Shown here in pieces: positions 47,391 through 54,078 of a stretch of DNA of 64,000 nt. The stretch is from an uncultured Lachnospiraceae bacterium. Lineage in GTDB: Bacteria > Bacillota > Clostridia > Lachnospirales > Lachnospiraceae. Location of the stretch: the NCBI GenBank assembly GCA_947625205.1, contig CANQNN010000004.1, positions 124,001-188,000 on the forward strand, in the 5' to 3' direction. Position 1 is the first letter of the stretch; each line of letters opens with the position of its first letter. The translations under genes and the position numbers were made by a program. Below the pieces are notes generated by a model that had not been told where the DNA came from, did no database searches, and saw nothing but the letters and a program-made list of their open reading frames with translations.

Positions 47391-48233
47391 TCAGCCGGCC
47401 ACCAGCCGTGCCGCGCCATACAGCAACAGCAGATGAACCGGATAAAAGCCGTAGCACACCGCCTTGGGAAGCTGCCTGCCTCTCGTTCCATCATACAGCG
47501 CGATCGGCACAAAAGCAAATAAACCGTATAATTCTCTTAACGAAAAACGAAACAAATATTCTATCGTATAATCTCCTGCATACTCCAGGCAGTTGATGCT
47601 CCACATACCCAGAAACATTACGCAGCCCGCCAGAGCCACCTTAAAAAACAGGCTGTATCTGCGCGTCACGTAGAATGTAAAGATCAGCAATACACCCATA
47701 TACTTATAGTCCGTACTCAGGACATACGCCGCCGCGCAGCATAAAACCAGGCACCCCAGGCGAATACCCCAAAAAGTGCAGATGCACATATGCCATCCCG
47801 CATCTTTCAGCTTACCCGTTTTCCGTATCATCCGGGCGCTATGCCCCGCCCACTCCCATACAGTCAGCGCCAGAACGCCCAGAAATAACGTGAGAAAGAT
47901 ATTTTGACTACTTGGGTCAAATACCTTTCCCCTAAACGCAAGGTCAAAGGGGATCTCTGATATAACCGCAAACAGGGCAAGCCTGCCTAAATACTTTCCT
48001 CTACTGTGCGTATGTACAAAACCCTCGGCCGCCAGAAAAGCAAACAGAACAAACGAGAGCCGTCCCACCGCCCTGCCTACGGAATAGATCTGCCCCAACG
48101 TCTCTGTCCCATGACCCGCCGCAGCGCACTCCTGAATGACAGCCAGAAAGACAACGGCAAAAAAATGATCGATGAACATGGTCGCATATGCAATATTTTT
48201 AATGCCGGCATTGCTGAATGATATTGTTTTCAT
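47391..48233 (-). CDS. TraX-family membrane protein
   Basis: This 280-residue protein has about eight membrane helices and TraX features: IKNIAYATMFIDHFFAVVF at the N terminus, FAFLAAEGFVHTHSRGKYL, EIPFDLAFRG, and KAVCYGFYPVHLLLLYG at the end. TraX acetylates F pilin, but chromosomal homologues in Firmicutes have unknown acyl-transfer roles, possibly on cell-surface polymers. Confidence 0.88.
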   Translation of the reverse strand: MKTISFSNAGIKNIAYATMFIDHFFAVVFLAVIQECAAAGHGTETLGQIYSVGRAVGRLSFVLFAFLAAEGFVHTHSRGKYLGRLALFAVISEIPFDLAFRGKVFDPSSQNIFLTLFLGVLALTVWEWAGHSARMIRKTGKLKDAGWHMCICTFWGIRLGCLVLCCAAAYVLSTDYKYMGVLLIFTFYVTRRYSLFFKVALAGCVMFLGMWSINCLEYAGDYTIEYLFRFSLRELYGLFAFVPIALYDGTRGRQLPKAVCYGFYPVHLLLLYGAARLVAG

Positions 48234-50086: not shown

Positions 50087-50365
50087 TCAGCGCGCTTTTA
50101 CCCCTGTGCGCGTATCGTTGATGACGATGTTTTTCTTCCTGCGATACCTCTCCGGCGTTTCAGGCAATGCATAGAACTTAGGCAGCTTAGCCTTTTCCTC
50201 CGGGTCGGCCGTATTCTTCTCTACCGCTTTACCTCTCACCACGTTTACATCCCTGGGCGCATCCACCATGATTCGAAGATGTTTCCCCGTACCGCCCAGG
50301 AAAACGATCTTTATGTCTTCACCGAGCTGTAAATATTCTTCTACGCTAAGTGTCAGTCTCAACAT
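50087..50365 (-). CDS. csrA: CsrA-type translational regulator, divergent with C-terminal extension
   Basis: This 92-residue protein resembles CsrA over its first about 60 residues: MLRLTLSVEEYLQLGEDIKI and LRIMVDAPRDVNVVRGKAVE, the latter covering the RNA-contacting Val-x-Arg region. A basic tail of about 30 residues (ERYRRKKNIVINDTRTGVK) is extra compared with typical 60-75-residue CsrA. CAGGGAGG precedes ATG 50365. CsrA beside flagellin is the usual setting for translational repression of flagellin, normally relieved by FliW; no fliW is in the window. Confidence 0.85.
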   Translation of the reverse strand: MLRLTLSVEEYLQLGEDIKIVFLGGTGKHLRIMVDAPRDVNVVRGKAVEKNTADPEEKAKLPKFYALPETPERYRRKKNIVINDTRTGVKAR

Positions 50366-50447
50366 ATAAATACCTCCCTGTATTATGTGCGTTCCTGCCG
50401 CCTGTGCTTTGCGCATTTATCAGTGACACTTTTTGTTATAAAATGTT

Positions 50448-50473
50448 GCATCGGAAAACAGACCGTTATTTTA
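50448..50473 (-). promoter_or_regulatory. Weaker sigma-D-like sequence facing csrA in present orientation
   Basis: Minus strand TAAA (50470-50473), 15-nt spacer, CCGATGC (50448-50454). The -10 part matches CCGATAT at 5 of 7 and spans the left repeat boundary. It may be a weak promoter or chance. Confidence 0.3.
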
Positions 50474-50490
50474 TTGTTAGGAGGAGTTAT

Positions 50491-51072
50491 ATGAGCACGA
50501 CAGAGCCGATCAGAAATATAAACGACTTAAAAAAATTTAAATCATATTATGAGTGCGTATGTCCCGACAGCAGAAATTCGCTGCTGTTGACAATAGGATT
50601 AAATACGGCGCTTCGTATCGGGGATATTCTGGCATTAAGATGGGACGATGTATTTGATTTTGCGCGTGAAAATATCAGAGACCACATAAGAGTCTGTGAA
50701 CAGAAGACGGGAAAGCTCAACATTATAGCAATTAATCCGACCCTTAAGGAAAAGCTTCTGCTTTTCCGGAAACTAAACCCTGCCGCGCTGAAAAACGACT
50801 ATCTTTTTCAGAGTAAAAAACGAAAAGGACAGGCGCTCAGCCGCTATCAGGCTTTCCGCATTATCAAGAAAGCCGCCGCGCACGCGGGCATAGAAGAACA
50901 TATAAGCTGTCACTCGCTGCGCAAGACTTTCGGCTACCATGCGTGGAAACAGGGCGTTCCGCCGGTAATGCTTATGAAGATATTCAACCATTCATCCTAT
51001 CAGGTCACGATTCGGTATCTGTGTATCGAACAGGATGAAAAGGACGAGGTCTTTCATAATATTATACTTTAA
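50491..51072 (+). CDS. Small tyrosine recombinase (site-specific integrase family)
   Basis: This 193-residue protein is a catalytic-domain-only tyrosine recombinase. Active-site residues are visible: Arg42 in TALRIGD, a lysine near 72-75 in QKTGK, His141 and Arg144 in HSLRKT, His167 in FNHSS and the nucleophile Tyr176 in TIRYL. It lacks the usual N-terminal core-binding domain, like FimB/FimE-type invertases. TAGGAGGAG precedes ATG 50491; the frame extends upstream to 50350 but across the left repeat and without a site. It is inside the segment it would invert. Confidence 0.92.
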   Translation: MSTTEPIRNINDLKKFKSYYECVCPDSRNSLLLTIGLNTALRIGDILALRWDDVFDFARENIRDHIRVCEQKTGKLNIIAINPTLKEKLLLFRKLNPAALKNDYLFQSKKRKGQALSRYQAFRIIKKAAAHAGIEEHISCHSLRKTFGYHAWKQGVPPVMLMKIFNHSSYQVTIRYLCIEQDEKDEVFHNIIL

Positions 51073-51099
51073 AAAAATACAGAATTTTCAAATTTGCCC

Positions 51100-51126
51100 T
51101 AAAGTATTTCATGGAACATCCGATAT
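51100..51126 (+). promoter_or_regulatory. Near-consensus sigma-D (FliA-type) promoter inside the invertible segment
   Basis: TAAA (51100-51103), exactly 15 nt, TCCGATAT (51119-51126) differs from TAAA-N15-GCCGATAT by one base. It points right, toward the terminator. After inversion around the 21-bp repeats it would point left, with a start about 100 nt before the csrA ATG. Confidence 0.8.
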
Positions 51127-51148
51127 ACTTTGTGTAAGCAATTAACAA

Positions 51149-51182
51149 ATGCAACATTTTATAACAAAATGTTGCATTTTTA
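51149..51182 (+). terminator. Terminator formed over the right inverted repeat
   Basis: A perfect 12-bp stem (51149-51160 with 51166-51177) and 5-nt loop, followed by TTTTTATTAT on the plus strand. Its inner arm belongs to the repeat and its outer arm to fixed flanking DNA, so it exists only at the right end in either orientation. Confidence 0.85.
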
Positions 51183-51312
51183 TTATACCCGGAATCCGGC
51201 AAACGGAAGTGGTAAATTTATCCTTATCTGTAATAATAACAACGGCTCTGTCCGGCAGCATGCGCAGCGGTATATGCCACGCTGAGCCCGCCGGCAAAAC
51301 GGAGGAAACAAT

Positions 51313-54078
51313 ATGATAGAAAGATTTGACCTGACCGGTCAAGACTGGGAATTCTGCCTTAGTAAAGAAGCGCTCTGCGAACATGCCGATTTTAACGACA
51401 CCATCCGTCTACCTTCCACCGTTTCCCAGCAGAAGAAACCTCCTGTCACTCAGGAGAGAAGCGACAGTTATCTAACCGATCCGTACCGTTTTGAGGGATA
51501 CGCCGCCTATCGGCGCACCATAAGTATTTCTCCCCGTATTCCCGAATGCGACATATATTTAGTCATGGAACGCACCCGCGTAAGCCGCCTGTGGATCAAC
51601 GGCACATACGCCGGATGCCGGAACAGTCTCTGCACGCCGCACAGATACGACATTACAGAATATTTTACCGAAAAGGACATGGAAATACTGATCGTGACAG
51701 ACAACGTTACCTGTCCCATCCCCGGAGGCCATATGACTTCCCCGGATACGCAAACTAACTGGCTGGGCATTATGGGCGAAATCTTCATAGAATGCAGAAG
51801 CCGCAAGCGTCTGGAAAATGTCAGGCTATACTCCGATGCCGCCGCAGAAAGCGTCACCGTCTGGGGACGGCTGACCGGGTGCAGCAGCCTTGAGGCCGTG
51901 GCATATGTAGATGGATTTCCCGCAATAACAGTGACGCTCACAGAGGGCGACCCTTCTTTTACTTATAATATGAAGGGCGCTGTCTTATGGAGCGAGCACA
52001 CGCCTGTCTGTTATACCATGAACCTTTCGTATGGAGACGATACGGAGCGGATATCCTTCGGCATGGGAGATTACTCGGCATCCGGCAGAAAGCTTATGCG
52101 CAACGGACGAAGGATCTTCCTGCGCGGCAAGCACGACGGTATGCTGTTTCCGCTGACAGGCGCCGCTCCCATGAATATTTCGTCCTGGCGCAGCATATTT
52201 AAGACGGCAAAAGAATACGGCATCAACCACTACCGCTTTCACACCTGCTGTCCGCCCGAAGCGGCCTTCAGCGCCGCGGACGAACTGGGAATATACCTCG
52301 AGCCGGAGCTTCCCTTCTGGGGTACGCTGGAGGAAGAGCCTGACGAAAGCCAGGCGTATCTGATCAGAGAGGGCTTCCGCATTCTCGACAGCTATGCCAA
52401 TCACCCTTCTTTCTTTGCTCTATCGCTGGGCAACGAGCTGTGGGGCAGCCGCGAACGGCTCAATGCCATATTGGGCGATTACAAACAGTATGACTCTCGC
52501 CTGCTGTACACACAGGGATCCAATAATTTTCAGTTTACTCCCTGTACAGTGCCCAACGATGACTTTTTTGTGGGCGTCCGTTTTTCAAAAGACCGGCTCA
52601 TACGGGGTTCTTATGCGATGTGCGATGCTCCTCTGGGCCACATACAGACAGCCGCGCCCGGATCGGTTTACAGCTACGACGAAAATATATATCCCTCTTC
52701 CGCTGCGTCCGATGCGTCCGTCCAATCTGTCAAGGACCGGGCTTTGCACAGTATACAGATCCAGTACGGGACCGGCGTAAAATCCGTCACTGCCGACGAC
52801 AGCGGTGAACTGATTCCCGGCATTCCCGTCATCTCGCATGAGATCGGACAGTATTTCATGTATCCCGACTATACGGAGATCCCGAAATATACCGGTGTGC
52901 TCAAGCCCTGCAATCTTGAAATATTCCGCGACAGACTGCGGGACGCCGGGTTGATCCACCTGGCAGACAGGTATTTTCGCGCATCCGGCAGATTTGCCGC
53001 CGAATGCTACAGGATGGAGATCGAGGCCGCTCTCAGATCAAAAGAGCTGTCCGGCTTTCAGCTGCTGGACCTGCAGGATTTTATGGGACAAGGGACTGCT
53101 CTTGTCGGCATTCTGAATTCTCTCATGGAAAATAAGGGACTGATGAGCGCGCAGGAATGGCGGTCCTTCTGCTCAGACAGAGTCCTACTTGGATGTATGG
53201 ACCGTTTTGTCTATCAGGGCGGCGAAACTATACACCTCGGTGTCAGACTCTATCACTATGCACCGAAAGCGGAGCAATGCGTCCGTGTTCTGATACGGCT
53301 TATTGACGCCGAAAATAAAGATTGTATCGCAGAGGCGGAATTGTCCGCAGAAGGACCTTTCATCGGCGGTGTCTTCGATATTGGAACGGCCAGACTCGCC
53401 CTTCCTTCTGTCCCGAAATCAAAAAAGGCTGTCCTCTCGCTTGCATACGGCGATCTCAGCAACAGCTATGATATATGGATATTCCCTGCGGATACGGATT
53501 TTTCCGCACCCGCTAACCTGACCGTGACCGGTTCGTGGGAGGAAGCGTCCGCCGGTCTGTCCGCCGGGCGCCGCGTCCTGTTCATACCCGACAGGATCAA
53601 CGAGGCGCTTTCCATAGAGGGAACATACTGTACGGATTTCTGGAACTACCCCATGTTCAGCTCGATCTCAGAGTCCATGAACAAGCCGCTTCCTGTGGGA
53701 ACACTCGGTCTGCTGATTGACAATACCCATCCGGCGCTTGCGGGATTTGCATCGGAAATATATTCCACCGCTCCGTGGTACGATATTGTGGCCTCTTCCC
53801 GCTGCCTTATTATGGACGGCGCCGGTATAGAGCCTATTGTCCGCACCATAGACAACTGCAAAAGGAATCACGATCTGGCCGACATCTTTGAAGCCGCCAT
53901 TGGAACAGGCAGGCTTTTGGTCTGCACGTTTCCTCTTCTTAAGAGTGGTTCTTTCGTCTGCCGCTTTCTCTTAAAAAGACTGGCAGAGTATGCCGCATCG
54001 GACAGATTTGCGCCCTCGCATGCCCTGTCGCCTGAAGCGTTAAACAAATACTTTGCGCCGGATGCGGTAAACGTGTAA
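51313..54078 (+). CDS. Glycoside hydrolase family 2 protein
   Basis: This 921-residue protein has the GH2 plan: an N-terminal jelly-roll sugar-binding domain (about 1-180, RVSRLWINGTYAG), an immunoglobulin-like domain (to about 255), a TIM-barrel (about 255-620), and further C-terminal domains. The acid/base Glu is in LSLGNELWG. The likely nucleophile is in PVISHEIGQYFMYPD. No signal peptide is seen, so it acts in the cytoplasm on small imported oligosaccharides. The sugar specificity is unknown (beta-galactosidase, glucuronidase or exo-type are all possible). GGAGG precedes the ATG. Confidence 0.9.
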   Translation: MIERFDLTGQDWEFCLSKEALCEHADFNDTIRLPSTVSQQKKPPVTQERSDSYLTDPYRFEGYAAYRRTISISPRIPECDIYLVMERTRVSRLWINGTYAGCRNSLCTPHRYDITEYFTEKDMEILIVTDNVTCPIPGGHMTSPDTQTNWLGIMGEIFIECRSRKRLENVRLYSDAAAESVTVWGRLTGCSSLEAVAYVDGFPAITVTLTEGDPSFTYNMKGAVLWSEHTPVCYTMNLSYGDDTERISFGMGDYSASGRKLMRNGRRIFLRGKHDGMLFPLTGAAPMNISSWRSIFKTAKEYGINHYRFHTCCPPEAAFSAADELGIYLEPELPFWGTLEEEPDESQAYLIREGFRILDSYANHPSFFALSLGNELWGSRERLNAILGDYKQYDSRLLYTQGSNNFQFTPCTVPNDDFFVGVRFSKDRLIRGSYAMCDAPLGHIQTAAPGSVYSYDENIYPSSAASDASVQSVKDRALHSIQIQYGTGVKSVTADDSGELIPGIPVISHEIGQYFMYPDYTEIPKYTGVLKPCNLEIFRDRLRDAGLIHLADRYFRASGRFAAECYRMEIEAALRSKELSGFQLLDLQDFMGQGTALVGILNSLMENKGLMSAQEWRSFCSDRVLLGCMDRFVYQGGETIHLGVRLYHYAPKAEQCVRVLIRLIDAENKDCIAEAELSAEGPFIGGVFDIGTARLALPSVPKSKKAVLSLAYGDLSNSYDIWIFPADTDFSAPANLTVTGSWEEASAGLSAGRRVLFIPDRINEALSIEGTYCTDFWNYPMFSSISESMNKPLPVGTLGLLIDNTHPALAGFASEIYSTAPWYDIVASSRCLIMDGAGIEPIVRTIDNCKRNHDLADIFEAAIGTGRLLVCTFPLLKSGSFVCRFLLKRLAEYAASDRFAPSHALSPEALNKYFAPDAVNV

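Follow-up and report, generated by a model that had tools for sequence, protein, structure and literature searches.

A probable self-encoded invertible promoter cassette for an additional flagellin in Lachnospiraceae

The window analysed here, a stretch of 64,000 nucleotides of Lachnospiraceae DNA, contains a 739-bp segment (50431-51169) that adjoins csrA and flagellin genes and carries a promoter of the flagellar type directed away from both. What is the role of a promoter placed in this way? Sequence comparison suggests that the segment is very probably an invertible cassette that carries the promoter of an additional flagellin, would be flipped by the recombinase it encodes and would have an OFF terminator at its distal site. 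A similar switch, nearly always OFF, is found beside flagellin genes in dozens of related bacteria.

The segment and its recombination sites

The segment is bounded by a perfect 21-bp inverted repeat, TTTTGTTATAAAATGTTGCAT (Table 1), which can be extended to 24 bp at 96% identity. In 100 dinucleotide shuffles of the window no repeat match with three or fewer mismatches was found, ruling out a chance origin; the repeat reported in the initial annotation is thus real. Between the two repeat copies lie the gene for a 193-aa tyrosine recombinase and the window's single strict sigma-D site. These enclosed parts also stand as first annotated, whereas the end assigned to the feature, 51182, does not, with the repeat ending at 51169 and the hairpin stem at 51179.

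Table 1. Features of the cassette and its neighbourhood (window coordinates)
Feature	Position	Strand	Basis
Left copy, perfect 21-bp inverted repeat	50431..50451	+	repeat search
Right copy, perfect 21-bp inverted repeat	51149..51169	-	repeat search
Flagellin-side recombination site	50423..50451	+	sequence reading; outward: no terminator
Minimal tyrosine recombinase, 193 aa, predicted invertase of its own segment	50491..51069 (stop codon 51070-51072)	+	PF00589 (Phage_integrase) E=1.1e-24
Sigma-D promoter inside the segment, directed away from csrA-flagellin (OFF)	51100..51126	+	TAAA-N16-CCGATAT
Distal recombination site and flanking T-run, predicted OFF-phase intrinsic terminator	51147..51187	+	folding, terminator scan, side asymmetry in relatives
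csrA paralogue, 92 aa, with C-terminal tail; would be the first gene behind the promoter after inversion	50087..50365	-	PF02599 E=1.6e-15
Flagellin predicted to be switched, 513 aa	48380..49921	-	PF00669 E=9.6e-45, PF00700 E=4.6e-24
921-aa ORF, weak GH2 sugar-binding match below cut-off	51313..54078	+	domain search

Each repeat copy is part of a two-armed site, in which two 12-nt arms flank an asymmetric 5-nt spacer. The flagellin-side site consists of a degenerate outer arm (50423-50434), the spacer GTTAT (50435-50439) and the inner arm AAAATGTTGCAT (50440-50451). The distal site, with arms at 51149-51160 and 51166-51177 and the spacer at 51161-51165, is a perfect dyad, ATGCAACATTTT-ATAAC-AAAATGTTGCAT. 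We take this arm-spacer-arm layout to be the appearance of a tyrosine recombinase core site. No known RNA family was matched at the Rfam gathering score between positions 48000 and 52000.

The Pfam match agrees with the initial description of the enclosed enzyme as a tyrosine recombinase reduced to its catalytic domain. Its residue set R, K (K72/K75), HxxR, H/W and Y is complete, and R42, K72, K75, H141, R144, H167 and Y176 are among the invariant columns of 40 aligned recombinase members; these residues presumably have the corresponding catalytic roles. Membership in the FimB/FimE family was considered and rejected. Model NF007371, which we take to be the FimE model, aligns to residues 28-177 with 42.2 bits versus a cut-off of 222, and NF007370 scores 30.5 bits versus a cut-off of 221, both far too low. 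The start codon of the recombinase is 39 nt from the left repeat, and one weak sigma-70-like match (50417-50444, 9 of 12 positions) spans the left site, making it a candidate recombinase promoter.

The enclosed sigma-D promoter, likewise noticed at the outset, is the sole strict match on both strands of the window, and a sigma-D factor is present. Since it points away from csrA and flagellin, the assembly corresponds to the OFF phase, as initially proposed. The recombinase would act on both two-armed end sites and flip the 739-bp segment. In the ON state, the promoter would read through the flagellin-side site into the csrA paralogue and flagellin. In the OFF state, that of the present assembly, it would read into the distal site, where the complete dyad and the T-run outside the segment are predicted to form an intrinsic terminator.

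Transcripts of csrA-flagellin might also start at a sigma-A promoter outside the segment, because weak sigma-70-like matches occur on the flagellin strand: one in csrA (50362-50335, 9/12), one in the recombinase gene (50700-50671, 9/12) and a third to the right of the segment (51342-51313, 10/12). Such matches number eight on both strands, with 3.1 expected.

Architecture and orientation among relatives

The survey comprised 121 loci with 122 recombinase places: the window, the best 80 of 144 relatives, and 40 stretches out of 49 profile matches listed, at least three of which (L145 and L146, recognized by sequence, and L172) repeat loci already in the set. The recombinase profile was matched at E ≤1e-25 in 42 of the 397 genomes of the family. 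A csrA or flagellin gene adjoins the recombinase in 74 of the 81 loci formed by the window and the best 80 of 144 relatives, and in 21 of the 40 additional ones. End repeats were searched up to 330 nt on each side with a minimal score of 14. Repeats scoring 14-60 bound 83 of the 121 loci, versus a maximum of 11 in shuffled controls (n=40), and none of them exceeds 35 nt. One locus, L087, with an 83-nt repeat and csrA/flagellin on both sides, was excluded from this repeat-bounded set. In 37 of the 121 loci no repeat reached the score of 14; some of these may have segments longer than the 330-nt reach of the search. Two such loci, L144 in the single-contig genome G441 and L049, have a family recombinase directly upstream of flagellin and may represent a larger segment or a different arrangement.

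In 80 of the 83 repeat-bounded loci csrA/flagellin genes are found on one side (exceptions: L158, L170, L171). As in the window, a predicted promoter lies between the inverted repeats in 77 of these 80 (exceptions: L150, L156, L160), with 9 or 10 of the 10 sigma-D positions matched. The match is full in 40 loci; the reversed motif gives one full match in the same sequence. A fixed sigma-D promoter in the flagellin-side flank was also considered and rejected: when up to 620 nt of this flank were read in the flagellin sense, none of the 77 loci had a full match and three matched at nine of ten positions.

After removal of two duplicates, the 77 loci with repeat, csrA/flagellin and promoter give 75 distinct ones. 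The promoter points toward csrA-flagellin in four of them (ON: L037, L061, L093, L110) and away in 71 (OFF). One locus, L103, was called 'toward' by the script from a tie and was counted OFF by hand, the equally scored other site being at the conserved place. In two pairs of related species both orientations are found with breakpoints exactly at the repeats and collinear flanks. Between L037 (ON) and L033 (OFF) the segment is reversed, with 75% identity over 789 bp ending at the repeats, and the flanks align on the same strand, at 77-87% in two long pieces on the csrA-flagellin side and at 89% over 38 bp on the distal side. Between L080 (OFF) and L093 (ON) the reversed segment is 77.8% identical over 776 bp, and the same-strand flanks are 81% and 94% identical. 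The remaining ON loci, L061 and L110, are more distant from their nearest OFF loci, and only parts align, in the same sense. Opposite orientations are thus seen between species and also between two cassettes of a single MAG, NALB_7961_32, which carries L066 (OFF) and L093 (ON). Usual sequencing reads are longer than 35 nt, the upper limit of these repeats, and repeat-driven misassembly is therefore an unlikely cause of the differences in orientation.

The occurrence of the opposite orientation in related genomes, proposed in the initial annotation as a check, together with the recurring architecture supports its central claim of an invertible segment that holds both invertase and promoter and ends in an OFF-phase terminator. 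With orientation so lopsided (4 of 75), inversion may be infrequent or may have ceased in many species; selection in the gut, a bias of recombination or slow switching could account for the OFF excess. One alternative would be a locked or relic switch, inverted in the past and fixed OFF in most species, with a mostly silent flagellin, as the 71 OFF loci out of 75 would suggest. We consider this improbable. The motif columns of the recombinase are still invariant across the 40 members aligned, and the ON state corresponds to four separate changes on the recombinase tree, all of them forced by starred branches. Moreover, the two sites remain matched within loci while their spacers drift between species: the five central bases occur in 33 versions, are identical at both ends in 71 of the 74 loci with an anchor motif (out of 77) and match between loci in 3.3% of comparisons, the within-locus identity being partly built in by the choice of loci that have a repeat. 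The recombinase also lies less than 700 nt from a contig end in 12 of the 40 fetched places versus 2.7 expected. This excess may mark mixed orientation in the sequenced populations; repeats could also cause it, and eight of the 12 have an end repeat scoring at least 14 and four do not.

The affinity of the enzyme to phage integrase families (phrog_216, E=6.6e-52) and the presence of sister enzymes at other loci, e.g., beside sugar-transferase genes (L170, L171), could also point to a small mobile element, a remnant of a phage integrase that landed near flagellin genes facing one way or the other and never switched in place. This reading is already disfavoured and scarcely credible: both flanks are collinear while the segment is reversed, a sigma-D-type promoter lies inside, csrA or flagellin is the neighbour in 74 of the 81 loci, and T-richness outside the segment is one-sided.

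Alternatively, inversion could be carried out by a recombinase encoded elsewhere, as by RecV in C. difficile, with the enclosed enzyme as a passenger. Two additional tyrosine recombinase-like frames, both longer, occur in the genome and have 23-27% identity to the enclosed recombinase. We regard this as highly improbable, since the enclosed gene is present in every cassette, although the cassettes were found by that gene, and since the loci with TGTGTTAC-type sites (L063, L066, L080, L093, L155) fall in one starred recombinase clade. The preferred reading thus remains that of a cassette flipped by its own enzyme. At the level of sequence, comparison of loci shows that the architecture recurs, that both orientations exist with their breakpoints at the repeats, that spacers agree within a locus and that T-runs are one-sided; we infer that the cassette's own recombinase carries out the inversion, that the terminator works efficiently and that flagellin output depends on orientation. 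Flipping the segment would probably let a cell switch one flagellin on and off.

Several loci depart from the common layout. In the TGTGTTAC clade the sigma-D promoter is upstream of the recombinase and divergent, with four of the five loci OFF and L093 ON; since the part order differs there, the arrangement varies while the ON/OFF logic stays. Loci L150 and L156 have the same site type, and no promoter was scored in them. In L033, L036 and L037 two or three tandem csrA-flagellin pairs are near a single switch, and one promoter might serve several flagellins. Loci L170 (2880-3458) and L171 (2668-3246) encode sister recombinases whose end repeats are similar, scoring 18 and 25, and their neighbours are glycosyltransferase, sugar-transferase or transporter genes rather than flagellin. 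No sigma-D site was found in the segments of L170 and L171, which are perhaps the same cassette type switching surface polysaccharides.

The distal terminator and the target genes

In the window, the promoter reads into a 14-bp hairpin followed by a T-run (51147-51179). Region 51128-51200 folds at -20.3 kcal/mol (z -4.1), and a terminator scan gave four terminator-like sites versus 2.1 expected. Read outwards, the left site gives no terminator (-7.7 kcal/mol, z +0.5). The initial annotation had placed an OFF terminator at the right site and none at the left, which holds in the window; it missed that the stem is the two-armed site of the recombinase. Confinement of a hairpin to one end is false in several relatives: in L046, L070, L084 and L102 both ends fold similarly and the sequence after the stem differs (in L084, only three T versus two).

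Outer flanks can be compared in every locus because they stay put when the segment flips. The comparison covered 76 loci; L147 and L161 were dropped, their contigs ending in the flank, and the promoterless L150, L156 and L160 were kept. The number of T after the called hairpin is higher on the distal side in 73 loci, lower in one and equal in two, with means of 5.2 distal versus 1.5 flagellin-side out of eight positions. The exception is the ON locus L110 (four flagellin-side versus three), whose distal flank starts with a T-run, and L066 is one of the ties. When the first 15 nt are counted without hairpin calling, the distal side is T-richer in 74 of the 76 loci, and the opposite is found in none. 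The distal hairpin is stronger in 60 loci and weaker in nine. Ends defined as terminator-like (-8 kcal/mol or lower, at least four T) number 56 distal versus three flagellin-side. With one locus per 70% recombinase identity, the distal side is T-richer in 36 of 38, and terminator-like ends number 27 versus none. The OFF terminator is thus predicted to recur, with the recombination site itself as hairpin and the T-run as the more consistent difference between the ends. In OFF, it would insulate the 921-aa ORF from the promoter.

The csrA paralogue matches PF02599 with 57 bits versus a cut-off of 27 and falls below both NCBIfam csrA cut-offs; it is therefore a divergent paralogue. Similar paralogues were extracted from 49 of the 63 loci tried. 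All 49 have R44, position 4 is L in 38 and M in 11, the extraction pattern having demanded a hydrophobic residue there, and the lengths are 59-107 aa, with at least 80 aa in 48 of the 49. These proteins form a divergent CsrA subfamily, in which F22, G24, G25 and R44 are invariant among the 49 and which has a C-terminal tail. The subfamily travels with flagellin genes whether or not a switch is nearby.

Adjacency of csrA and flagellin to the segment, as given in the initial annotation, stands; two further flagellins and a second csrA had been overlooked. The flagellin N-terminal family has four matches in the genome. Besides the flagellin next to the segment, a 310-aa flagellin clusters with FliS, FliD and FliW and has its own sigma-D site upstream, and a third one of 374 aa is on a different contig. 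The fourth, weaker match is a 517-aa protein beside fliW, with Flagellin_N alone in Pfam, which by eye reads as FlgL. Of the two csrA genes, one adjoins fliW directly and the other is the switched paralogue. With two other flagellins and another csrA in the genome, cells in the OFF phase may still be motile; the cassette would contribute an extra flagellin and probably does not control motility by itself. Among 37 genomes of the same genus, flagellin-family matches average 7.1 in the 21 with a strong recombinase match (E below 1e-40) versus 4.3 in the 16 without, completeness being unmatched between the two sets.

The leaders of the switched and the fixed flagellin each carry one GGA within a predicted hairpin loop and another at the ribosome-binding site; in that of the fixed flagellin, GCAGC-ATGGAA-GCTGC, the predicted loop contains ATGGA. 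Leaders with two such sites have been reported for hag of B. subtilis and proposed for fliC of C. difficile (PMC8523840, excerpt), and those found here resemble them. By analogy with FljA and fliC in Salmonella, we hypothesize that the CsrA paralogue may repress the fixed flagellin; FljA is described as acting on the fliC promoter (PMC9368917, excerpt).

Implications and comparison with known switches

The carriers of the cassette include Eubacterium sp. 14-2 (L062), which we take to be a source of Crohn's-linked flagellins. In Crohn's disease, flagellins of Lachnospiraceae are targets of a strong antibody response (PMC11285207, excerpt). Should many such flagellins depend on a promoter of this self-flipping kind, OFF in 71 of the 75 assembled loci, finding the gene in a metagenome would reveal little about exposure. 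Orientation, which is readable from existing shotgun data, would then indicate directly which bacteria are able to express flagellin in the gut.

Invertible promoters of Clostridia have been linked to tyrosine-type recombinase families, and invertases of gut invertons are described as near the invertons, unlike the one here, which is inside (PMC11892184, excerpt). The word stem 'flagell' does not occur in PMC11892184. In a 2013 paper by Neville on Eubacterium and Roseburia flagellins (PMC3720852), recombinase, invert, integrase and phase are absent as whole words. A partial literature search found no title on a flagellin switch in Lachnospiraceae.

The gene for RecV is located away from the C. 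difficile flagellar switch. RecV is CD1167 (PMC2784873, excerpt). That switch shares with the present one a tyrosine recombinase, 21-bp inverted repeats, flagellar genes and its occurrence in Clostridia; it is a promoterless segment of 154 bp that acts after initiation on the flgB operon (PMC5386303, excerpt), whereas here promoter and recombinase lie inside the segment and the target is one flagellin. The FimB/FimE type 1 fimbrial switch of E. coli also combines minimal tyrosine recombinases of ~200 aa with an invertible promoter, but fimE adjoins the switch (PMC5386303, excerpt), and here the recombinase is inside. With 42 bits versus a cut-off of 222, the latter is not of the FimB/FimE family. 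The precedent for the OFF-phase intrinsic terminator is C. difficile cwpV, where the inversion region was proposed to give rise to one in the OFF transcript; unlike here, the promoter is upstream of the segment, the repeats are 195 bp apart and no gene is inside (PMC2784873, excerpt). An intrinsic terminator of the cwpV type, present in OFF only, is also what folding predicts in the window and what the 56 distal versus three flagellin-side ends suggest among relatives. A self-encoded invertase in a flagellin switch (Hin) and an OFF-only terminator (CwpV) are thus both already known.

The textbook example of an invertase within a flagellin switch is Hin of Salmonella. It is named as lying inside its own invertible segment (PMC5903667, excerpt), so that this trait of the present cassette is not unusual, contrary to what was first suggested. 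The likeness to Hin/fljBA is considerable: invertase gene and flagellin promoter share one invertible segment (PMC9368917, PMC5903667, excerpts), the promoter drives a flagellin and a regulator of flagellin expression, FljA there and the CsrA paralogue here, and another flagellin is found elsewhere in the genome (PMC9368917, excerpt). The two differ in that Hin is a serine recombinase and the present enzyme a tyrosine recombinase (PF00589), similar in working and not a member; in that the regulator gene comes first here, and is a CsrA; and in that OFF here is closed by a predicted intrinsic terminator built from the recombination site. Hin has a Fis/HU enhancer, and the comparison here rests on recombinase, promoter and gene content. 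Tentatively, and with more doubt than confidence, the cassette could be read as a convergent re-invention of Salmonella flagellar phase variation on a tyrosine recombinase, in which one flip would switch on both a flagellin and a dedicated CsrA paralogue, the latter repressing the fixed flagellin at translation as an RNA-binding stand-in for FljA, the half-sites would double as the OFF terminator stem, and the whole would serve as a general switch of flagellar antigens, mostly silent, in gut Lachnospiraceae. If true, the cassette would exemplify cleanly how an unrelated enzyme can converge on the Hin design, and how a recombination site can be reused as a terminator stem.
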